From the NCBI GenBank assembly GCA_944326055.1, contig CALVCT010000068.1:1-42193 (forward strand): a DNA stretch of 42,193 nt. Reading direction: 5' to 3'. The notes below the pieces were generated by a model. That model worked only from the letters and a program-made list of their open reading frames with translations. It was not told the DNA's origin and made no database searches. Position 1 is the first letter of the stretch. Every line of letters begins with the position of its first letter. This stretch comes from an uncultured Erysipelotrichaceae bacterium (GTDB taxonomy: Bacteria; Bacillota_I; Bacilli_A; Erysipelotrichales; Erysipelotrichaceae). Both the position numbers and the translations under genes were made by a program. This document shows, one piece after another, positions 1 through 11,980 of the stretch.

Positions 1-1101
1 AGGTCGAGCCAAAAACATTTTGACAGGATCTTTGAAAGATACGGTCTTGGCTATGCCTCGGCACTCTTTCTGACCATCATCTATGAAGATGAAGGGATCA
101 CGATGAATGAGGTAGCTATCAGTGGTAGCTTTGATAAAGGAACGATCACAAAGTCCATCCAAAAGCTCCAAGAGCAGGGTCTTGTCGAAGTTCGAATATC
201 GACTGAAGACAAAAGACAAAAGAAGCTCTATACGACCGCGAAAGCTCATGAGATCATGACTGATATCTATCTGCAAAAACAAGCTTGGTGGGACTATCTA
301 TTACAAGATGTCGATGATACAGAGCTTGATGAATATCTACGTGTCTCAGCGAAGATCATGGCCAGGGCAAAAGAGTACGATAAAAAAGAGGAGAGCGAAG
401 CAGATGTGAAGTTCTTTGGACTTCAAAAAGTTACTTTGCTTGATTATCCAGGCAATGTCGCGTCGACACTGTTTACTGGTGGTTGTAACTTCCGCTGTCC
501 ATTTTGCCAAAATCGGTCCCTTGTATTTTTAGATGAAGGTAATACAGAACTTGATAAGGATGAGATCTTGAGTTATCTAAAAGAGCGTTCAAAGATCTTA
601 GATGGCATCTGTATCAGTGGTGGTGAGCCACTGATACACAAAGGACTCAAGTCCTTCATCATCAAAGTCAAAGAGCTAGGACTCAAAGTCAAGCTCGATA
701 CTAATGGTTCCTTCTATGAGGAGCTTAAGGACCTCATCGATGAGGGCATCATCGATCATGTGGCGATGGACGTCAAGAATGCGAAAGAGGCATATGCTAT
801 GACGATAGGTCTTAAAGAGTATGACCTTACAAATATCGAAAAGAGTGTCGACTTATTGAAGGAAGGACGAGTCGACTATGAATTTAGGACGACGATCGTA
901 AGAGAGTTCCATGATCTGGATAGGATAAGAGAACTCGGAGAATGGTTGAAAGGTGCTAAGCGCCTCTATTTGCAAAATTTTGAGGATGGACCTACATGTA
1001 TCATGCAAGGTCTGCATCAGGTAGACAAAGAAATGATGTATGAGATGCGCGACATCTTACGCACATATGTACCAAATACAGATATCAGAGGAATGGAATA
1101 A
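1..1101 (+). CDS. nrdG: MarR-like wHTH fused to anaerobic RNR activating protein (NrdG type), 5' partial
   Basis: The frame is open from base 1, so the true start lies outside the window; 366 codons are visible. Codons 1 to about 115 read as a MarR winged helix: YGLGYAS, then ITMNEVA, FDKGTITKSIQKLQEQGLV and the wing DKRQKKLYTT. After a charged linker (DKKEESEAD) comes a radical SAM domain with CxxxCxxC at codons 162, 166 and 169 (GGCNFRCPFCQ) for the 4Fe-4S cluster, and a GGEP SAM-binding motif. The domain opening FFGLQKVTLLDYPG is typical of NrdG2-type activases, which make the glycyl radical on NrdD. The next gene, 11 nt on, is nrdD, which supports the role. Fusion to MarR is unusual. A GTG at 406 behind GAGGAG (388-393, 12 nt away) could also give a free activase, but that spacing is long. 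Activase role is strong; DNA binding is inferred. Confidence 0.85.
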   Translation, partial: RSSQKHFDRIFERYGLGYASALFLTIIYEDEGITMNEVAISGSFDKGTITKSIQKLQEQGLVEVRISTEDKRQKKLYTTAKAHEIMTDIYLQKQAWWDYLLQDVDDTELDEYLRVSAKIMARAKEYDKKEESEADVKFFGLQKVTLLDYPGNVASTLFTGGCNFRCPFCQNRSLVFLDEGNTELDKDEILSYLKERSKILDGICISGGEPLIHKGLKSFIIKVKELGLKVKLDTNGSFYEELKDLIDEGIIDHVAMDVKNAKEAYAMTIGLKEYDLTNIEKSVDLLKEGRVDYEFRTTIVREFHDLDRIRELGEWLKGAKRLYLQNFEDGPTCIMQGLHQVDKEMMYEMRDILRTYVPNTDIRGME

Positions 1102-1112
1102 GGAGAGCAGTT

Positions 1113-3503
1113 ATGTATCAGGTTATCAAGAGAAATGGAAAGACCGTCGATTTCGATATCGACAAGATCGCTGCAGCGATCGAAAAAGCATTCGTGGCAT
1201 GCGAGAAACAATATCACCCAACTGTCATCAATATGCTAGCGCTAAGCGTTACAAGCAATTTTGAGCCAAAGATCAAGGATGAAAAGGTCTCTGTCGAGGA
1301 CATCCAGGACAGCGTAGAGGAAGTATTGTCAAATGCAGGATATGCTGATGTCGCTAAGGCTTATATCTTGTATCGTAAACAACGCGAGAAAGTAAGAAAC
1401 GTCAGTGAGACGATGCTTGACTATAAAAAACTCGTTGACCAATATCTCAATGTCAGTGACTGGCGTGTTAAAGAGAACTCGACTGTCACTTACTCAGTCG
1501 GCGGCTTGATCTTATCAAATAGTGGCGCTATCACAGCGAACTATTGGTTGAGTGAGATCTATGATGAAGAGATCGCTAATGCCCACCGCTCAGGCGATAT
1601 CCATCTTCATGACCTTAGTATGTTGACAGGCTATTGTGCTGGCTGGTCCCTAAAACAACTCATCCAAGAAGGTCTAGGTGGCGTTAAAGGCAAGATCACA
1701 TCAAAGCCTGCAAGACATCTGAGTGCTCTATGTAATCAGATGGTCAACTTCTTAGGCATCATGCAGAATGAATGGGCAGGTGCTCAAGCTTTCTCATCGT
1801 TTGATACTTACTTAGCACCATTTGTTAAGATCGATAACTTGGATTATGACACAGTCAAACACTGCATCGAGTCTTTTGTGTATGGTGTCAATACACCATC
1901 ACGTTGGGGCACCCAAGCACCATTCTCTAATATCACTCTTGATTGGACGGTACCAGATGATCTTGCTGAACAATATTGCATCGTTGGTGGTAAAGAAGTC
2001 GATTTCAAGTATAAAGATTGTAAAAAAGAGATGGATATGATCAATAAGGCTTTCATCGAGGTCATGCTAGAAGGAGATGCTGATGGCAGAGGCTTCCAAT
2101 ATCCTATCCCAACATATTCGATCACAAGAGATTTTGACTGGTCTGAGACTGAGAATAATAAACTCTTATTTGAACTTACAGCGAAATATGGTACACCTTA
2201 TTTCTCAAACTATGTCAATTCTGATATGAAGCCAAGCGATATCAGATCGATGTGCTGCCGTTTACGACTTGATCTTAGAGAGCTTAGAAAGAAGAGTGGT
2301 GGATTCTTCGGTAGTGGCGAGAGTACAGGTTCTGTTGGTGTCGTCACTGTCAACTTACCACGTATCGCCTATCTTGCAAAAGATGAGAAGGATTTCTATG
2401 ATAGATTAGATCACATCATGGATATTAGCGCTAGATCGCTCAAGGTCAAGCGTGAAGTCATTACAAAGCTTTTGGAAGCTGGCTTGTATCCATATACAAA
2501 ACGTTATTTAGGTACTTTCAATAATCACTTCTCGACTATCGGTCTTGTCGGTATGAATGAGACAGCTCTCAATGCGAAGTGGCTCCATAAAGACTTGACA
2601 CATAAAGAAGCACAAAAGTTCGCTGTTGACGTTCTCAATCACATGCGTGAAAGGCTCGTCATCTATCAAGAGGAGTATCACGATCTATACAATCTTGAAG
2701 CGACTCCAGCTGAAAGTACATCGTATCGTCTAGCTAAACATGATGTCGAGAAGTATCCAGACATCATCACGGCTTCAAAGAAAGGTGAGACACCATATTA
2801 TACAAATAGCTCACATCTACCTGTAGGAAGTACAGATGACGTCTTTGCAGCCTTAGATGTTCAAGATGAATTACAGACGCTCTATACATCAGGAACCGTC
2901 TTCCATACATATCTAGGTGAGAAATTACCTGATTGGAAAGCGGCAGCGACTCTAGTCAAGAAGATCTCGGACAACTATCGTCTTCCATACTATACGATCT
3001 CGCCAACTTATTCGATCTGTCCTGAACATGGATATATCAAAGGTGAAGAGTATACATGTCCGATCTGTGGCAAGACGACGGAAGTCTGGTCAAGGATCAC
3101 TGGTTACTATCGTCCGGTCCAAAATTGGAACGATGGTAAAGCTAAGGAATTCATCGATCGTAAAGAATATGATCTAGAAAGCTCTTTCTTACATGGTAAA
3201 GAGAAGATCGTGGAAAACAAGTTCGATGAAGATAGGTCTCTTTCTGAACAACTGACTTTTTCAAAAGATGATCTTGGTGAAGTCTTAGTCTTCACGACCA
3301 AGACTTGTCCTAATTGCAAGATGACAGAGAAGATGCTTGATGAGAAAGGTATCAGTTATACAGAGATCGATGCTGCAACTAACCAAGATCTCGTTGCTGA
3401 GTATGATGTCATGGCTGCACCAACTGTCATCTTAAAGAAAGATGACAAGATCACAAAACTAGCAAGCTACGCTGAAGTTCAAAACTTCATGCATCAGCTT
3501 TAA
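1113..3503 (+). CDS. nrdD: Anaerobic ribonucleoside-triphosphate reductase with C-terminal redoxin domain
   Basis: Class III ribonucleotide reductase, 796 aa, converting NTPs to dNTPs by glycyl-radical chemistry. An N-terminal ATP-cone (about 1-95, MYQVIKRNGKTVDFD) provides allosteric control. The catalytic barrel holds adjacent cysteines C381-C382 (SMCCRLRLDLREL), near where the thiyl-radical cysteine is expected. The C-terminal metal site is C636-x2-H639 and C649-x2-C652, and the glycyl-radical loop is RITGYYRP with G664. Unlike formate-dependent enzymes, the chain continues into a roughly 75-residue thioredoxin/glutaredoxin fold with CPNC (732-735) and a cis-Pro motif MAAPTV, so a disulfide reductant is probably built in. 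Redoxin-using NrdD subtypes are known; assignment to that subtype is inference. AGGAG at 1101-1105 serves the ATG. Confidence 0.95.
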   Translation: MYQVIKRNGKTVDFDIDKIAAAIEKAFVACEKQYHPTVINMLALSVTSNFEPKIKDEKVSVEDIQDSVEEVLSNAGYADVAKAYILYRKQREKVRNVSETMLDYKKLVDQYLNVSDWRVKENSTVTYSVGGLILSNSGAITANYWLSEIYDEEIANAHRSGDIHLHDLSMLTGYCAGWSLKQLIQEGLGGVKGKITSKPARHLSALCNQMVNFLGIMQNEWAGAQAFSSFDTYLAPFVKIDNLDYDTVKHCIESFVYGVNTPSRWGTQAPFSNITLDWTVPDDLAEQYCIVGGKEVDFKYKDCKKEMDMINKAFIEVMLEGDADGRGFQYPIPTYSITRDFDWSETENNKLLFELTAKYGTPYFSNYVNSDMKPSDIRSMCCRLRLDLRELRKKSGGFFGSGESTGSVGVVTVNLPRIAYLAKDEKDFYDRLDHIMDISARSLKVKREVITKLLEAGLYPYTKRYLGTFNNHFSTIGLVGMNETALNAKWLHKDLTHKEAQKFAVDVLNHMRERLVIYQEEYHDLYNLEATPAESTSYRLAKHDVEKYPDIITASKKGETPYYTNSSHLPVGSTDDVFAALDVQDELQTLYTSGTVFHTYLGEKLPDWKAAATLVKKISDNYRLPYYTISPTYSICPEHGYIKGEEYTCPICGKTTEVWSRITGYYRPVQNWNDGKAKEFIDRKEYDLESSFLHGKEKIVENKFDEDRSLSEQLTFSKDDLGEVLVFTTKTCPNCKMTEKMLDEKGISYTEIDAATNQDLVAEYDVMAAPTVILKKDDKITKLASYAEVQNFMHQL

Positions 3504-4346: not shown

Positions 4347-4769
4347 ATGAACATATTATTCTTTCTGACTCCAAAAGTCAAACTGCAATATCTTGAAGAT
4401 GATGACACTGTGCGTCAAGCTATCGAGAAGATCAGAGTAAAAGGTTATACAGCTATTCCTATCATCTCTAAGAAAGACGGCTCCTATGTCGGTACTGTTT
4501 CTGAAGGTGATTTTTTATGGCATCTTATCGACGAGAATACATGGAACATCTATGAATTAGAAAAGGAAAAAGTGGTCGATATCATCGATAAAGATCGCTA
4601 TCGTCCAGTTAAAGTAAGCGCAGAGATCGATGATCTACTACAACTGATCATGAATCAAAATTTTGTGCCGGTCGTCGATGATCGTGATGTCTTTATGGGC
4701 ATCATCACTAGACGTCGAGTCATCGATTATTTTTATAATGAGAGTCGCAAATGCAATACCGCATCATGA
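4347..4769 (+). CDS. CBS-domain protein, translationally coupled to a BceR-like regulator
   Basis: 140 aa made almost only of two CBS motifs: VRQAIEKIRVKGYTAIPIISKKDGSYVGTVSEGDFL (about 22-57) and IDDLLQLIMNQNFVPVVDDRDVFMGIITRRRVIDYF (about 96-131). Paired CBS motifs (Bateman modules) usually bind adenine nucleotides and act as energy or dinucleotide sensors. There is no enzyme or membrane domain, so it probably acts by binding a partner. Its last 19 nt overlap the response-regulator gene, indicating coupled translation. A TATAAT at 4322-4327 lies upstream and a weak GAGG at 4333-4337 precedes the ATG. Its link to peptide resistance is inferred only from the coupling. Confidence 0.85.
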   Translation: MNILFFLTPKVKLQYLEDDDTVRQAIEKIRVKGYTAIPIISKKDGSYVGTVSEGDFLWHLIDENTWNIYELEKEKVVDIIDKDRYRPVKVSAEIDDLLQLIMNQNFVPVVDDRDVFMGIITRRRVIDYFYNESRKCNTAS

Positions 4770-5440
4770 TCGTTGAAGACGATGAAGTGATCGCAGATGC
4801 GATAGCTTCTAAATTAGGTAAATGGGCTTTTGATGTAAGGAAGATCAGAGACTTCAAAGCTGTAGACCACGAATTCATCGAGTATGATCCACAGCTAGTG
4901 ATACTCGATATCAACTTACCTTTTTATGATGGTCATCATTGGTGTGAAAAGATCAGAAAAGTATCAAAAGTTCCTGTTCTTTACATCTCTTCTATTTCCG
5001 ACAACATGAATATCATCATGGCGATGAATATGGGTGGCGATGATTTCATCTCAAAACCCTTCGATCTTGATGTGCTAGTAGCTAAAGTACAAGCTTTACT
5101 GAGACGTGCTTATGACTACCGGACTGACCAAAGTTTCATCGAAGTCAAAGGCGTCATCTTACGTCTTAATGATCAGACACTTTTATATAACGATCAGACG
5201 GTAGAACTCACTAAGAACGAATACCGTATCTTACATACGCTCTTTGATCGGCTCAATAATGTCGTGACACGTGATGAACTCATGGAGAAGCTTTGGGAGA
5301 CAAGCGAGTTTATCGATGACAATACTTTGACTGTCAATATGACAAGACTCAGACGCAAGTTGGAGGATGTCGGGATCTTAGATCTTATCGAGACGAAGAA
5401 AGGGCAGGGCTATATCGTCAAAGATGAGAGACTTTCTTGA
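4751..5440 (+). CDS. OmpR-family response regulator, BceR-like
   Basis: 229 aa. The receiver domain has the acidic pocket VEDDE (8-12), phosphoacceptor D53 (VILDINLP) and K102 (ISKPF). The C-terminal winged helix (about 130-225) has LTKNEYRILHTLF, RDELMEKLW and the recognition region VNMTRLRRKLE. It is followed, overlapping, by a short two-helix histidine kinase and then by a BceAB-like ABC pair, which is the conserved order of Bce-type detoxification modules. It should activate the transporter genes when the kinase is stimulated. The start overlaps the CBS gene. Candidate binding sites lie at 6402-6437. Confidence 0.93.
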   Translation: MQYRIMIVEDDEVIADAIASKLGKWAFDVRKIRDFKAVDHEFIEYDPQLVILDINLPFYDGHHWCEKIRKVSKVPVLYISSISDNMNIIMAMNMGGDDFISKPFDLDVLVAKVQALLRRAYDYRTDQSFIEVKGVILRLNDQTLLYNDQTVELTKNEYRILHTLFDRLNNVVTRDELMEKLWETSEFIDDNTLTVNMTRLRRKLEDVGILDLIETKKGQGYIVKDERLS

Positions 5441-6401
5441 TTATATAAGGCATAAAAAAGGTACTATCTGCTTATTTTTAGGGCTTCTTGCCATCTTTGA
5501 TAGTGGCTTATTTCTCTACGATAGTAATATCGAAGTCTTTTTGTATGTCGATACTTTAGCTTTAGTCTTTTTTCTTATCTATCTTTTCTTTTCATACCAA
5601 AAGTTCAAAACGAAGATCAGTATACTAAAAGAAGCAAAAGAGAAGATCATGCTTGAAGATATGATGATCGATGATCCATCAAAGATCGATGATCTCTATC
5701 TTGCGATCATTGAAGATCTTAAAGATCTAGTCAAAGAAGATCGCGATGAAAGATCATCTATGTATCGGGAGATGATCGATTATTACACCCTTTGGGCCCA
5801 TCAGATCAAGACACCTATAGCAGCATTGAAACTATTATTGGCTCAAAGCAACGACACTAAGATCAAGATCGAAGTCCTCAAGATCGAGAGCTATGTCGAG
5901 ATGGTCATGACTTACCTTAAGTTAAATGAAGACAGTAAAGATTATGTCTTTGAAAAAGTCTCTTTGGCTAAAGTGATCAAAGAGGAGATACGTTATCATT
6001 CAACGATCTTCATCTATAAGAAGATCGAAGTGAGCTATGATGGTATCGATGTCTATGTGCTCTCTGATGAGAAATGGCTAGCTTTCATCATTTCACAGAT
6101 CATCTCTAATGCCCTAAAATATACAAATAGTGGCGGACATATCAAGATCAGTTATCGTGATGAAAGACTGATGATCGCCGATGATGGGATAGGGATACGC
6201 AAAGAAGATCTGCCTCTCGTCTTTGAAAAAGGCTATAGTGGTACTGTTGGAAGAGAAGATAAAAGAGCTAGTGGCATTGGTCTATACCTTACTAAAAAGC
6301 TTTGCGATATCCTTGGTATCAAGATCACTATCGATTCAAAGCTTGATGAGGGGACCATCGTCACACTTACTTTCAACAATAAGAGCAAGACTTTTGAATA
6401 A
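5424..6401 (+). CDS. Intramembrane-sensing histidine kinase, BceS-like
   Basis: 325 aa. Two closely spaced N-terminal membrane helices (about 13-32 and 36-57) have almost no extracellular loop, the mark of intramembrane-sensing kinases that take their signal from the partner ABC transporter. The HisKA region has H126 in WAHQIKTPIAALK. The ATPase domain shows the N box ISQIISNALKYTNSGG, the G1 box DDGIGI and the G2 box ASGIGLYLTKK. It overlaps the regulator gene by 17 nt, so the pair is made together. By family it responds to bacitracin, lantibiotics or similar peptides; the actual inducer cannot be read from sequence. Confidence 0.93.
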   Translation: MRDFLDYIRHKKGTICLFLGLLAIFDSGLFLYDSNIEVFLYVDTLALVFFLIYLFFSYQKFKTKISILKEAKEKIMLEDMMIDDPSKIDDLYLAIIEDLKDLVKEDRDERSSMYREMIDYYTLWAHQIKTPIAALKLLLAQSNDTKIKIEVLKIESYVEMVMTYLKLNEDSKDYVFEKVSLAKVIKEEIRYHSTIFIYKKIEVSYDGIDVYVLSDEKWLAFIISQIISNALKYTNSGGHIKISYRDERLMIADDGIGIRKEDLPLVFEKGYSGTVGREDKRASGIGLYLTKKLCDILGIKITIDSKLDEGTIVTLTFNNKSKTFE

Positions 6402-6437
6402 CTTACGAAACTGTAAGAATGAAGCTTCAAGTGTAAG
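6402..6437 (+). promoter_or_regulatory. Candidate BceR-type binding sites upstream of the ABC genes
   Basis: TTACG-N4-TGTAA at 6403-6416 (inside the inverted repeat CTTAC/GTAAG at 6402-6417) resembles the TnACA-N4-TGTAA consensus reported for BceR-like regulators. A second TGTAAG at 6432-6437 lies exactly 20 bp after the first (6412-6417), on the same DNA face. A -10-like TAGAAT at 6470-6475 has no good -35, as expected for an activated promoter. GGAGG precedes the transporter ATG. Confidence 0.6.
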
Positions 6438-6496
6438 ATAGATAGCGAGATTCTTTTTTCTTTGGATCTTAGAATATAGCTGTAGGAGGATAAAAC

Positions 6497-7258
6497 ATGG
6501 AACTATTAGATGTAAGAGATGTACGTAAGGTCTATGCCTCACGTCTCACAAGCAAGACTACAGCTTTAGATGGCGTGACTTTCAAAGTCAAAGAAGGGGA
6601 GTTTGTGGCCATCATGGGTGAATCAGGAAGCGGTAAGACTACTCTTCTCAATATCTTAGCAGCATTAGATCGTCCAACAGATGGAGCTGTCTATCTTAAA
6701 GGTCAAAACCTCAGTGCGATCAAAGATAAAGATATTACGATCTTTAGGCGCAATAACTTAGGTTTCGTCTTTCAAGAGTTCGACCTACTCAGCAATTTCT
6801 CTAATGAAGACAATATCTTATTGCCACTAGTGTTAGCTAACTATCACTATAAAGATATGATGGCACGTTTAGGACCTATCGCAGAAGCTTTGGGTATAAA
6901 AGAATTGCTCAAGAAGTATCCTTATGAGATATCTGGTGGTCAAAGGCAGCGTGTCGCTGTGGCCAGAGCTTTGATCAATGAACCAAAGATCATTCTAGCA
7001 GATGAGCCGACAGGAGCGCTCGATTCTAAGTCGAGCGATGAATTGCTTTCGATCTTTGAAAAGATCAATAAGGCTGGTCAGACCATCCTCATGGTCACAC
7101 ACTCTGTCAAAGCTGCTAGCTTTGCATCAAGAGTCCTCTTCATCAAAGATGGTAAGATCTTCCATGAACTATATAAAGGTGATCTAAGTTACGAAGACTT
7201 CTTTATCAAGATCTCTGATACATTGACTTTCTTACTTAAAGGAAGTGATAGAAGATGA
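6497..7258 (+). CDS. ABC transporter ATPase, BceA-like
   Basis: 253 aa nucleotide-binding subunit of the MacB/LolD/BceA group. Walker A GESGSGKTT (41-49), Q loop FVFQEFDLLS, signature SGGQRQRVAVARAL, Walker B ILADEPTGALDS and switch MVTHS are all intact. FQEFDLL is typical of BceA-type proteins. It pairs with the FtsX-fold permease, whose start overlaps its stop by 4 nt. In this family the pair frees cell-wall targets such as undecaprenyl pyrophosphate-peptide complexes and also signals to the kinase. The 95-nt gap before it holds its own regulated promoter. Confidence 0.95.
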   Translation: MELLDVRDVRKVYASRLTSKTTALDGVTFKVKEGEFVAIMGESGSGKTTLLNILAALDRPTDGAVYLKGQNLSAIKDKDITIFRRNNLGFVFQEFDLLSNFSNEDNILLPLVLANYHYKDMMARLGPIAEALGIKELLKKYPYEISGGQRQRVAVARALINEPKIILADEPTGALDSKSSDELLSIFEKINKAGQTILMVTHSVKAASFASRVLFIKDGKIFHELYKGDLSYEDFFIKISDTLTFLLKGSDRR

Positions 7259-9201
7259 AAGCTTTGACAATTAGGCTCGCTAAAGATGATATCCTTAAAA
7301 GTAAGCGTCTCTATCTACCTTTCATCTTATCAGCGACCGGTATCATCGCTTTAGCTTATATCGTCAATTCATTGGCTAATAATGAGTCTTTACTTGAGAC
7401 ATATGCCGGATCTTATGTATCGATGTTTCTGATGATGGGGACCTTCATCATCTATTTCTTTGCGATCATCTTCTTTTTCTATACGAATAGCTTCATCTCT
7501 AAGAAAAGACGCAGTCAATTAGGTCTTTATAATATTTTAGGGCTATCGAAGATCGATCTTGTGAAAGTCGTCTTCTTTGAGACAGCGATCGTTTTTCTTA
7601 TAGCACTGATCTTTGGTACAGCACTTGGGATCTTGCTTGAGAAGTTAGCTTTCTTATTGATATTGCGTTTTATCGATGTTGAAGTCATCTTTGGTTTTAC
7701 GATCAACTTTAAAGTCATCACTGCAAATGCAATATGGTTCTTTGGCATTTTCTTAGCTCTATTCATCTATAGTGCTATCACAGTCATAAGGAATGATCCG
7801 ATCAGATTGCTTAGATCAAAAGAAGTAGCAGAAAAAGAACCAAAAGCGAAATGGCTCATCACTTTGATCGGTATCATCTTTATGGGGTTTGGTTATTATC
7901 TGGCTAATGCTACAAGTGGTGCTATGGAGTCTCTGGCTTTCTTCTTTCCAGCTGTCTTTTGTGTCATCATCGGTACCTACTTACTATTTACATCAGGCAG
8001 CATCGCTCTTTTGAAGTTTCTTAAAAGCCGTAAGAACTACTACTATAAGACAAGGCATTTTATCACGATCTCCCATCTCATCTTCCGCATGAAGAAGAAT
8101 GCAGCAGGACTAGCTTCGATATGCATCATGGCAACGATGATCCTTGTCATGACGGCTTCGACGACCAGTATGTGGTTTTCGATGGAGTCAACGATCGAAC
8201 GTCTATTTCCTAGAGATATGCTGATCGAGATCCAAGGATTAGATGAGAGCGAGGATGAAAGAGTCATCAAGATCATCGACGACTCACTTTCAAAGATCGA
8301 TAACAGTGCTTTAGACATGTCGGTATTCGATAGTGGTGAGATCTATGGCACGATAGTCGATGACACACTTGAGGTCCATGATTCGATATACAATAGTTCG
8401 CAAGTCTTTACGATCATCAAAGCAAGTGACTACACATATCTGACGGATGAGCAATTAGATCTTGGCGCAAATGAGATAGCTCTCAGCACTGAATCGTACA
8501 CTTATGATCATAGCTATCTTTCGATCAAAGGCGAAGACTATAAGATCAAAGAAGTGTATCGCGGCAATATCGCTGGCTTACCCGATACGAATTCAGTCAA
8601 CCAAAATGGAGAGATAGTGATCATCATGAATGATGCGGATGTGTCTAAGATCACAGACATGTGGCGCAATTACTACTTTGATTTTAAAGATCGTCTAGAT
8701 ATCTCTAATGATCGATTTCAGATGTTCGACGATCTAAAAGAGGCATATAGCGATTATGCAATGTCTATCTCCAATAAAGGTGAGTTTGACCAGATCTTGC
8801 GCGGTATGTATGCATCTTTCCTTTTCTTAGGTATCTTCTTAGGTCTGACGTTCATGTTGAGTATCGTGCTCATCATGTACTATAAACAGATATCAGAGGG
8901 GGATGAAGACAAAGGACGCTATGAGATCATGAGCAAAGTCGGGCTCAGCGATAAAGAGATCAGACGCACGATCGATTCTCAAGTCATCTTCGTCTTCTTC
9001 ATGCCGCTTGTCGTCGCGATCATCCATCTTTTGGGATCATACAAGATGGTAAATAGTCTACTCGTTGCTTTGAGTCAACTTCCGACGGATACATATCGAT
9101 ATACGATGATCATCTCGCTTGTCGCTTTTATCATCTTCTATGTCGTCGTCTATATCCTTACTAGCAGGACTTACTATAAGATCGTTACTAAAAATGCATA
9201 A
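7255..9201 (+). CDS. ABC transporter permease, BceB-like (FtsX fold)
   Basis: 648 aa. The layout matches BceB: one N-terminal helix (about 20-40), a block of helices (about 55-80, 105-130, 150-175), then two more (198-250), a seventh at about 285-308, a large extracellular domain of about 190 residues (roughly 310-500), and three C-terminal helices (about 512-540, 570-595, 613-640). The large loop between helices 7 and 8 is the hallmark of BceB-type permeases and is where the peptide or lipid-peptide complex is sensed. It completes the kinase-regulator-transporter module. No frame break. The next gene downstream is foreign, so the operon ends here. Confidence 0.92.
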   Translation: MKALTIRLAKDDILKSKRLYLPFILSATGIIALAYIVNSLANNESLLETYAGSYVSMFLMMGTFIIYFFAIIFFFYTNSFISKKRRSQLGLYNILGLSKIDLVKVVFFETAIVFLIALIFGTALGILLEKLAFLLILRFIDVEVIFGFTINFKVITANAIWFFGIFLALFIYSAITVIRNDPIRLLRSKEVAEKEPKAKWLITLIGIIFMGFGYYLANATSGAMESLAFFFPAVFCVIIGTYLLFTSGSIALLKFLKSRKNYYYKTRHFITISHLIFRMKKNAAGLASICIMATMILVMTASTTSMWFSMESTIERLFPRDMLIEIQGLDESEDERVIKIIDDSLSKIDNSALDMSVFDSGEIYGTIVDDTLEVHDSIYNSSQVFTIIKASDYTYLTDEQLDLGANEIALSTESYTYDHSYLSIKGEDYKIKEVYRGNIAGLPDTNSVNQNGEIVIIMNDADVSKITDMWRNYYFDFKDRLDISNDRFQMFDDLKEAYSDYAMSISNKGEFDQILRGMYASFLFLGIFLGLTFMLSIVLIMYYKQISEGDEDKGRYEIMSKVGLSDKEIRRTIDSQVIFVFFMPLVVAIIHLLGSYKMVNSLLVALSQLPTDTYRYTMIISLVAFIIFYVVVYILTSRTYYKIVTKNA

Positions 9202-9625: not shown

Positions 9626-10492
9626 TTATACATAGCTGTCCTGTGCTTTGAAATACAGACTGTCCATAATGCACCGGACAGTATCGCAGGCATCGTCAAA
9701 GGAAATATCTTTTGCATAGTCAAAATCACGCTGATACTTTTTCCAGAAGCCCCGGAGCTGTTCGCTTGCGCGGATCTCCGCGATAATGTCCGGGTAGACT
9801 TCCAGCACTTTGCGGCTCCCTCGCTTGTCCGCTGTCCGTTTTAGAGCTTGCAGCAGCGTCTTTGCATTGCATTCTGCGCCGCGTAGGGCGTGTAGAATAT
9901 GTATGTCGTAAAAATCTCTCGGACGGGTATTGGCAATGCTGCGGGACAGTACAGTTTCGATCTTCTCTGCCAACACCGTTTCAAGATTATAGGCAAGGAT
10001 GCTGATTGTGTGGTCATCAAACAGCAGAGAAAAGGTATATTCGATCTCCCTTGGCGTGATAATATCCCCAGTAGTCACATCCACGGTCAAGGGTACGCTG
10101 ATCGGCGGGTAGTTCGCTTTCAGAGCAACGCGGATGCCCGGATAATCGTCACGCTCACGGATGTCCGAAATGTCCACCAGCTCAAACTTCACATCGTCGG
10201 CAATTTCCACGGCGCAGATTTCTCCGAATATCTCTTGGATGGATTCATGCGTCAGCGTAAAGCCTTTGATCGTAGTATCTAAATCCATTGTCGCCCTTGT
10301 GTCCAGACCGACGATTGCGGAAATGAGGAAACCACCTTTGAGTATGAAATTGTGCTTGTACTTTGACAGCGAAATTCGTTCCAGAAGTCTTTCCAGCATA
10401 TAGTTCTGCATGACGAGCTGAGCAGAGATATTCTTTTCCGCAGCTTTCTTTTTGATAAAGGTTTTGAGCTGCATCGGATTCTTTGTAATCAT
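9626..10492 (-). CDS. abiEii: AbiEii/AbiGii-family nucleotidyltransferase toxin
   Basis: 288 aa, full length for the family. Toxin of the type IV toxin-antitoxin and phage-defence system AbiE: a DNA polymerase beta-like nucleotidyltransferase acting in the cytoplasm. Motif I is LKGGFLIS (G53-G54), motif II is MDLDTTI (D70, D72), a third acidic residue is D138 in PLTVDVT, motif III is LAEKIET (E176, K177) and motif IV is RPRDFYDI (R192, D193, D196). All expected catalytic residues are present, so it is probably active. Its start overlaps the antitoxin stop by 4 nt. It lies on a GC-rich mobile remnant, consistent with recent transfer. Confidence 0.92.
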   Translation of the reverse strand: MITKNPMQLKTFIKKKAAEKNISAQLVMQNYMLERLLERISLSKYKHNFILKGGFLISAIVGLDTRATMDLDTTIKGFTLTHESIQEIFGEICAVEIADDVKFELVDISDIRERDDYPGIRVALKANYPPISVPLTVDVTTGDIITPREIEYTFSLLFDDHTISILAYNLETVLAEKIETVLSRSIANTRPRDFYDIHILHALRGAECNAKTLLQALKRTADKRGSRKVLEVYPDIIAEIRASEQLRGFWKKYQRDFDYAKDISFDDACDTVRCIMDSLYFKAQDSYV

Positions 10493-11082
10493 AATAATAC
10501 CTCCATATAGCGCAGCACTTTGGGCTTCACACGAAGCTGATCTGCGTACTGCATCAGTTTGTGTATGTCTTTTTCTTTGGAAGTCGCGTACTTTTTCATT
10601 GCCGCACCTACGATCTGAATATCGCTGCCGCTACCGCGCAGAATGTCACACAGCGTCCTTTCAAGGTCATAGACACGGATGGGATTACCGCAGGGGGATT
10701 TCAGTTCAATCACACCAAAAGAATAGTTCTCCGGCACAACTCGCTTAATGTTGATGCTTTCCTGTTTCAACGACGGCGAATTATAACCTTTGGGAAATGT
10801 CATGGTGTACTTCGCCGGGGTACGATCAGAATAGCCCAGCAGATACAGCGCGGTATCGTGTGAGTATATCCCACGCCCGTACTTGCGCTGCAACAGGTAA
10901 AAATCATCTTCCCATACGTTGCTGCGCACATACAGGCCGCGCCCAAAACGGTAAAGCTCCCCGTTCTCTACAAGATCCTGTAAAATGCTGCGGTGCAGCC
11001 CTGCGGCTGTCACCTGTTCTGCGGTAATCGTTCCGTCCGGCGACGCTTCCAATAGTTCTTTGATTTTTTCTTTGTCGGCCAT
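10489..11082 (-). CDS. abiEi: AbiEi-family antitoxin/transcriptional repressor
   Basis: 197 aa. The N-terminal winged helix (about 1-75) includes ITAEQVTAAGLHRSILQDLVENGELYRFGRGLY, which is the AbiEi_4-type antitoxin signature. The C-terminal domain (about 85-195, YSHDTALYLLGYSDRTP and VYDLERTLCDILR) is the part that neutralises the toxin in studied AbiEi proteins. I use ATG at 11082 because the in-frame GTG at 11091 lies inside the GAGGTG ribosome-binding site. The gene starts the abiE operon, and an array of repeated motifs upstream fits known AbiEi autorepression. Confidence 0.92.
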   Translation of the reverse strand: MADKEKIKELLEASPDGTITAEQVTAAGLHRSILQDLVENGELYRFGRGLYVRSNVWEDDFYLLQRKYGRGIYSHDTALYLLGYSDRTPAKYTMTFPKGYNSPSLKQESINIKRVVPENYSFGVIELKSPCGNPIRVYDLERTLCDILRGSGSDIQIVGAAMKKYATSKEKDIHKLMQYADQLRVKPKVLRYMEVLL

Positions 11083-11107
11083 AGCTGCCACCTCACTTTC
11101 GACTACT

Positions 11108-11581: not shown

Positions 11582-11980
11582 AAATGTCCCACGACTACGA
11601 GTTGGAACAGAGTAACCTTAAATCGATGGCAGAGGTTTTGCGCAAGGAGTTGAAACAGCAGGAACAGCAGAAAAACCAATGCCAAGGCATTTGTCGCAGC
11701 GGTGAAGAAGTACACTGATATGCAGGAGCTAGACGCGGCAGTTCTCCGAGAATTTATAGACCGCATCGAAGTGTCCCACACAGACAAGAAATCCAAGACG
11801 AGGAAAATTACCATTGTCTACGATTTCATCGGTACATTTGACTTTGCACGGGCTATCGAAGAAGCCCATAATACAACTGAAAAACAGCAAAAAGACGGCA
11901 TAACCGTCGAGCTAAACCGTCTTTTGTTTCAATATTTTCTTAAGTCACTGCCCCATTTAGGAGTCATTTTTGGTATATAG
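11582..11980 (+). pseudogene. Large serine recombinase C-terminal fragment, frameshifted
   Basis: Frame one (from 11586) reads KMSHDYELEQSNLKSMAEVL and on to EQQKN, the coiled-coil part of a TnpX-like large serine recombinase. One extra base near 11680 then breaks it: the second frame continues NAKAFVAAVKKYTDMQELDA and REFIDRIEV, the DUF4368-type C-terminal region, to the stop at 11978-11980. The catalytic serine resolvase domain and zinc-ribbon region are gone. It abuts the relaxase stub, so an internal deletion fused the two genes' remains. It lies at the edge of the element, where such recombinases normally sit. Confidence 0.78.

Follow-up and report, generated by a model that had tools for sequence, protein, structure and literature searches.

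The first gene of a 42,193-nucleotide stretch of Erysipelotrichaceae DNA encodes a MarR winged helix and a radical SAM activase of the NrdG2 type in a single chain. We consider it probable that this fusion is a bifunctional activase-repressor of ribonucleotide reductase (RNR) genes, and that in some lineages it has turned into a pure regulator. The fusion recurs in related bacteria, a palindrome precedes it and certain other RNR genes, and in a divergent set of loci the neighbouring NrdD has lost its radical-cysteine loop, with the DNA-binding motifs of the fusion retained.

A winged helix and a radical SAM activase share one frame

The stretch analysed, referred to here as the window, comprises bases 1-42193 of contig C68 in a 1.38 Mb assembly that is 98.5% complete. 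Its first frame (Table 1) encodes 366 aa with no stop and is open at the 5′ end. The start of the gene is missing because the window begins at base 1 of the contig, and relatives possess an N-terminus about 14-17 residues longer (M...LSLDSSILYR). The winged helix that marks a MarR family regulator was recognized above curated cut-offs by two Pfam models, MarR_2 (PF12802; residues 14-73, 37.1 bits) and MarR (PF01047; residues 22-73, 36.3 bits), and residues 139-327 of the same frame matched the NCBIfam NrdG2 model TIGR02495 with 202.7 bits (cut-off 131.15). Together with this score, the CxxxCxxC motif and the nrdD neighbour identify the C-terminal half as an NrdG2-type activase of class III RNR. 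The first-pass annotation, which had read a MarR winged helix joined to an NrdG activase in one uninterrupted frame, was therefore borne out, with both domains over curated cut-offs.

An AlphaFold2 model of the fusion, built as a monomer (as were all structure models of the fusion) with 27 homologues, reached a mean pLDDT of 90.2 and a pTM of 0.63; linker residues 129-132 fell below a pLDDT of 50. In a Foldseek search the N-terminal half of the model matched the MarR protein 3bpv (TMt 0.75), and pyruvate formate-lyase activating enzyme (3cb8, TMt 0.76) was the match for the C-terminal half. The arrangement would place an enzyme and a DNA-binding domain in one chain, as in enzyme-repressors, and the predicted role of the activase half is to install the glycyl radical on NrdD.

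Table 1. Features of the fusion gene and the adjacent nrdD (window coordinates unless residues are stated)
Feature	Position	Strand	Remarks
MarR-NrdG2 fusion gene	1..1101	+	Open frame, Pfam and NCBIfam matches, relatives; 5′ end past contig edge
MarR half	1..375	+	Winged helix at about residues 14-80, dimer-type helices flanking both sides
DKGT and DKR motifs of MarR half	residues 45-48 and 70-72		
NrdG2 activase half	406..1098	+	TIGR02495, 202.7 bits; pyruvate formate-lyase activating enzyme-like fold
Internal GTG, put forward earlier as a second start	406..408	+	Not conserved
CxxxCxxC cluster motif (C162, C166, C169)	484..507	+	
GGEP motif (residues 207-210)	619..630	+	
nrdD	1113..3503	+	ATP-cone, NRDD domain, C-terminal glutaredoxin-like domain
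ATP-cone of NrdD, residues 3-92	1119..1388	+	PF03477, 82.8 bits
Cys-Cys of radical-cysteine loop SMCCRLR, NrdD	2253..2258	+	Absent from 17 divergent partners
Glycine of RITGY glycyl-radical motif, NrdD	3102..3104	+	

The fusion gene ends 11 bases 5′ of nrdD. The radical-cysteine loop of the encoded NrdD aligns with CCRL of 4coi/4u3e; in the Prevotella enzyme the radical initiator Cys416 sits in this loop (PMC11226230). The C-terminus of NrdD carries a glutaredoxin-like domain (window 3282-3428, residues 724-772), and the Cys-Cys pair in the radical loop is arranged as in Thermotoga-type NrdD. These two features suggest a built-in redoxin reductant.

Two further gene groups in the window stand apart from the RNR genes. 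A response-regulator-like frame, a histidine kinase (HATPase), an ABC-ATPase-like frame and an FtsX permease follow one another at 4751-9201, a row that we take to resemble Bce-type peptide-antibiotic sensing modules. On the minus strand at 9626-11091 lies an AbiEii toxin / AbiEi antitoxin pair of the type IV toxin-antitoxin class (138.5 and 30.7 bits), adjoined by a DUF4368 fragment (11702-11980) that is possibly a recombinase remnant; the region may accordingly be a mobile insertion.

The fusion is old and conserved

The full-length fusion was found in one frame in 27 of 60 relatives, at 38-80% identity. This recurrence rules out a frameshift or an assembly join, and the possibility raised in the first-pass annotation, that the two domains might always be separate in relatives, did not hold. 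Two of the 60 relatives carry a stand-alone NrdG2 (235 and 231 aa), and no separate MarR gene was matched within the 1.5 kb flanks of stand-alone NrdG2 at L035 and L036. Among 296 genomes of the window's class, NrdG2 matched 79 times above cut-off; 17 of these matches, counting that of the window, fall in frames 366-425 aa long, and every one of the 17 opens with a MarR-like half. Their holders belong to the window's family, to another family of the same order and to one family from a different order.

When one genome per species (84,980 species) was scanned with the MarR half, 191 relatives emerged, of which the best 80 were analysed. At all 80 loci the MarR half continues into the activase half and an nrdD-like frame lies directly 3′ of the fusion. 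These best 80 include many Erysipelotrichaceae metagenome-assembled genomes (MAGs) together with Sharpea, Kandleria, Eggerthia, Holdemania, Longicatena, Dielma, Beduini, Faecalicoccus, Faecalitalea, Holdemanella, Catenisphaera, Absicoccus and Floccifex, mostly gut bacteria. The MarR-NrdG2 fusion is old and conserved. In Holdemania filiformis (G356:C28) the nrdD adjacent to the fusion is split. Its two same-strand pieces (124304-125155 and 194897-195721) lie about 70 kb apart and cover NRDD profile residues 1-273 and 274-562, respectively, reminiscent of the insertion of a large element into the gene.

Stand-alone NrdG occurs in addition to the fusion in 26 of 29 fusion genomes, and the fusion is therefore not the sole activase in most of them. 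The other three genomes (G359, G360 and G363) lack a stand-alone NrdG over cut-off, making the fusion their likely activase. The earlier suggestion that the internal GTG yields a free activase beside the fused product found no support from conservation. A GGAG lies 12 bases 5′ of this codon, but a start codon within -4 to +3 codons of the GTG column was present in only 15 of 78 loci (12 exactly there; five with a Shine-Dalgarno-like core; L050 and L115, with no start codon assigned, were left out) and was absent from the closest relatives, L037-L039.

A palindrome precedes the fusion genes

The palindrome TAGTTG-N6-CAACTA was first seen 5′ of 26 fusion genes. With up to two mismatches it lies at -69 to -27 before 70 of the 80 fusion genes, placing near the own gene the kind of palindromic site expected of a MarR family regulator. 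Over the 80 loci the best site has no mismatch in 36, one in 27, two in seven and three to five in ten, counts that come from related lineages and are not independent. Sites with at most one mismatch were found at 63/80 fusion loci versus 0/1372 control windows; at most two mismatches were reached in 8/1372 control windows of the same loci. Letter shuffles gave 1/1560 and 16/1560 at these two thresholds. The 68 own sites with an assigned start (again without L050 and L115) comprise 41 distinct 18-mers.

The loci fall into 63 of intact type, a label based on activase motifs, and 17 that are divergent (described below). An own site with at most two mismatches is present in 63/63 intact-type loci versus 7/17 divergent loci; all ten loci without one are divergent. 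A permissive search run with no control found a TATAAT-like hexamer near 75 of 85 sites (68 own sites and 17 at second-nrdD loci), 3′ of the palindrome in 37 and 5′ in 38. Such a position, on or beside the core promoter, would fit a repressor. The promoter of the window's own fusion gene is beyond the contig edge, and its operator is predicted from the relatives. The first-pass annotation had proposed an autoregulatory sensor-enzyme, and the predicted operator, a palindrome ahead of this gene in relatives, backs the autoregulatory role.

The palindrome also precedes other reductase genes

The sole exact palindrome in the window's genome (C29:6886-6903) lies 50 bp 5′ of the start codon of the class I gene nrdE. 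Three sites in this genome have one mismatch; two overlap longer open frames and the third (C50:330) is upstream of a putative secreted-protein gene. Upstream regions were scored in 27 of the 29 relatives that matched for a large subunit (the upstream sequence of G035 being only 19 bases long). A class I/II large subunit is encoded in 13 fusion genomes: two of the window's genus have an exact site (at -50 and -48), two more of that genus have three mismatches and the other nine have 4-5; in the 13 fusion-free genomes whose upstream sequence was long enough, the best site has 3-6 mismatches. Control of class I genes as a general rule is thus ruled out, and it would at most be local to the window's genus.

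Across 29 fusion genomes there are 34 exact palindromes, compared to 15 for a reversed control pattern. Nineteen of the 34 stand before a second nrdD, ten before the fusion and five elsewhere. One of the latter five, in a Beduini genome (L164, G353:C3:114932), lies 28 bp upstream of an unrelated frame that encodes 260 aa; it may mark a further target or be the site of another MarR protein.

In divergent fusion genomes the palindrome precedes the second nrdD in 16/16 cases (15 exact, one with a single mismatch), and in 10 of the 16 this is the only exact palindrome in the genome. None of eight fusion-free genomes of the order has a site with fewer than three mismatches before its ATP-cone reductase frame (0/8), these controls being the genomes in which such a frame, a putative nrdD, had been located. 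Both an own and a second-nrdD site occur in Sharpea (two species; the second-nrdD site of the second, G352, was assigned by coordinates), Kandleria and G041. No palindrome precedes the second nrdD in five intact-type loci, L117-L120 and L129 (two Holdemania, Dielma, Longicatena and one MAG), which rules out control of the second nrdD everywhere. Outside the fusion family, an exact palindrome stands before a stand-alone MarR gene in the fusion-free genome G049 (C52, L245 521-538). The palindrome is therefore not unique to the fusion family, and this type of site is common to at least one other MarR protein.

Divergent pairs lose catalytic features and keep putative regulatory ones

The 17 divergent loci (L087, L088, L090, L092, L094, L096, L098, L100, L101, L102, L105, L106, L107, L108, L109, L114 and L116) all lack the radical-cysteine loop in NrdD. 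The loop is shortened and without cysteine in 15; L094 and L102 have no recognizable NRDD domain, and only the ATP-cone was recognized in their nrdD-like frame. NrdD is shortened in L094, L102 and L106, and that of L087 was read as 672 aa yet is absent from the ORF listing. The start motif of the ATP-cone is present in 17/17 divergent partners, the Pfam ATP-cone matched all five that were scanned (68-80 bits), and most keep the zinc cysteines and the glycyl loop. Among intact-type partners the radical-cysteine loop is present in 56/56 that were readable; six others are cut by a contig end and the L086 frame ends at 125 aa.

The activase half of the divergent fusions is affected less uniformly. 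L109 and L116 have a broken cysteine triad, and L090, L092, L094 and L114 a broken GGEP motif, leaving six of the 17 without triad or GGEP but with the MarR motifs kept; the other 11 keep both. Only one of the 63 intact-type fusions deviates (L091, with GGEA for GGEP). The recognition-helix and wing motifs are kept in 80/80 loci, with variants that are single and conservative. Mean pairwise identities for the winged helix are 0.648 among 16 divergent rows (L106 left out of this per-domain comparison) versus 0.597 among 64 intact-type rows, whereas for the activase core they are 0.403 versus 0.622. For pairs matched at a winged-helix identity of 0.6-0.7, the activase core values are 0.390 and 0.627, respectively. 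A model of the Absicoccus fusion still contains both folds (pLDDT 89.5).

A tree of 81 sequences places two changes to the divergent state, one in a clade of 16 (SH-aLRT 99) and the other in Eggerthia, nested with Sharpea (SH-aLRT 99). Adding G147, G286, G122 and G210 gave four changes, three of them forced by supported branches, in a tree from which 22 near-copies had been dropped, in which L233 and L234 were labelled from their sisters and in which the outgroup fell apart rather than holding as monophyletic. The added branches are long, and "two or more" is therefore the safe count of conversions. Two partners read among the added four are frames of 509 and 516 aa without the glycyl motif. 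The fusions at G122:C2 and G210:C5 (L232, L233) have an intact MarR half and no cysteine triad, with a short ATP-cone NrdD 3′ of the fusion in G122; they perhaps represent a further independent conversion. All 16 divergent genomes analysed (that of L116 lying outside this set) encode a second NrdD that has both the radical cysteine and the glycyl motif, as well as a stand-alone NrdG over cut-off.

A model for the fusion and its alternatives

In the model that we consider probable, the C-terminal half would install the glycyl radical on the NrdD encoded next to it, and the MarR half would, as a dimer, bind TAGTTG-N6-CAACTA in its own operon promoter and also, in the window's genome, at the class I nrdE promoter, repressing both. 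Relief would probably come through the activase half, according to whether or not it is engaged with NrdD, whose ATP-cone would read ATP/dATP, and perhaps also according to the presence of the cluster and SAM. In some lineages the pair would no longer act as a reductase, NrdD having lost its radical-cysteine loop and some fusions their activase motifs; the MarR half and the ATP-cone would persist as a trans regulator of the second, intact nrdD operon, with the dead NrdD as the likely nucleotide sensor. The retention of the activase half and the ATP-cone beside a reductase that appears dead points to a signal that most likely travels from NrdD by way of the activase half. A signal from the cluster or SAM is unlikely in the six divergent fusions that have lost triad or GGEP and yet keep their MarR motifs; the ATP-cone of the partner NrdD is a more plausible source there. 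A redox or radical signal is possible in the 11 of 17 divergent fusions with triad and GGEP.

Alternatively, the MarR half might sense a small ligand or oxidant of its own, the fusion serving only co-production and the state of activase and NrdD playing no regulatory part. Ligands of known MarR proteins bind within the dimer domain of the regulator itself, and the MarR half of the fusion appears complete in the structure model. A free-standing MarR would need neither an activase half nor an ATP-cone partner, yet all 17 divergent loci keep both beside an NrdD without radical cysteine, and we regard this explanation as unlikely. It is less probable still that the palindrome belongs to a different MarR family protein and that the fused MarR is a dimerization or scaffold module of the activase. 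The window's genome encodes five other MarR proteins which, with the site before the stand-alone MarR gene of G049, mean that the binder could be another member of the family. Against this, the recognition-helix and wing motifs persist in 80/80 loci, even where activase motifs are gone, the nrdD site tracks the fusion (16/16 versus 0/8 in fusion-free genomes), and the fusion gene itself is preceded by the site in 63/63 intact-type loci.

The loss of the radical-cysteine loop, the shortened NrdD of L094, L102 and L106 and the loss of the own site in 10/17 divergent loci might also be read as the decay of pseudogenes rather than as the emergence of regulators. The frames are nevertheless open across the clade of 16 and Eggerthia (apart from the L087 nrdD missing from the ORF listing), the winged helix is more conserved than in intact lineages, the ATP-cones of the five scanned partners still match at 68-80 bits and the second-nrdD site is kept throughout, which makes decay very improbable. 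Under the activase-repressor model, we tentatively suggest, with rather less than even confidence, that class III RNR and its activase turned at least twice into a two-protein analogue of NrdR, in which the MarR-fused activase would bind DNA and the ATP-cone of the dead NrdD would sense dATP/ATP. The intact pair would then be enzyme and sensor at once, reporting its own state to anaerobic and aerobic reductase genes.

If this holds, a transcription regulator arose from an enzyme and the enzyme that activates it, by stages that are still alive in cultured bacteria: an intact pair preceded by its own site (Holdemania, Longicatena), an intact pair with an added site before the second nrdD (Sharpea, Kandleria), a dead NrdD beside intact activase motifs (Eggerthia, Faecalicoccus) and, lastly, damaged activase motifs (Absicoccus, Faecalitalea). 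Expression of RNR genes must match need, and a class with no detected NrdR needs another regulator, a role for which the fusion, with its defined site and targets, offers a concrete candidate. Signalling from an ATP-cone to a foreign DNA-binding domain also becomes testable.

Comparison with known systems

The fusion is built from parts of known kinds; the combination, the palindrome and the apparent conversion to a regulator pair found no account in the literature searched, which excluded preprints and most subscription journals from its scope, and the fusion is not described in the available portions of PMC12548448, PMC2795772, PMC11226230 and PMC4390871. Compared to NrdG and NrdG2, the fusion shares the radical SAM fold, CxxxCxxC, GGEP, the nrdD neighbour and a TIGR02495 score over cut-off; it differs by the MarR domain at its N-terminus. 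Of the 79 NrdG2 matches above cut-off in the class sample, 62 lie outside such long frames. With MarR regulators such as MTH313 (3bpv) and SlyA (1lj9) the fusion shares the winged helix, the dimer helices and a short palindrome at its own promoter, but here the MarR domain is fused to an enzyme and its proposed targets are RNR genes.

NrdR controls RNR genes in most bacteria (PMC2795772). The NrdR model TIGR00244 scored over cut-off in 0/296 genomes of the class, fusion holders and others alike, and in 9/14 control genomes. A loss of NrdR specifically where the fusion occurs is thus ruled out, and the absence is not special to fusion holders. The fusion is not itself an NrdR, because its Pfam matches include neither an ATP-cone nor a zinc ribbon. 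The proposed action on RNR promoters and, for the divergent pairs, the proposed link between an ATP-cone and DNA binding resemble NrdR, and dATP/ATP-responsive repression of the NrdR type may serve as a working likeness. The differences are that DNA would be bound by a MarR winged helix on the activase rather than by a zinc ribbon, that the ATP-cone sits in a second protein, NrdD, and that the palindrome is another one.

The closest parallel in architecture is found in enzyme-repressors ("trigger enzymes") such as PutA, BirA and NadR, which combine an enzyme and a DNA-binding domain in one polypeptide and control their own pathway. Unlike these, the enzyme half of the fusion is predicted to activate another enzyme, and in some lineages catalytic features have been lost from both proteins while the putative regulatory parts were kept.
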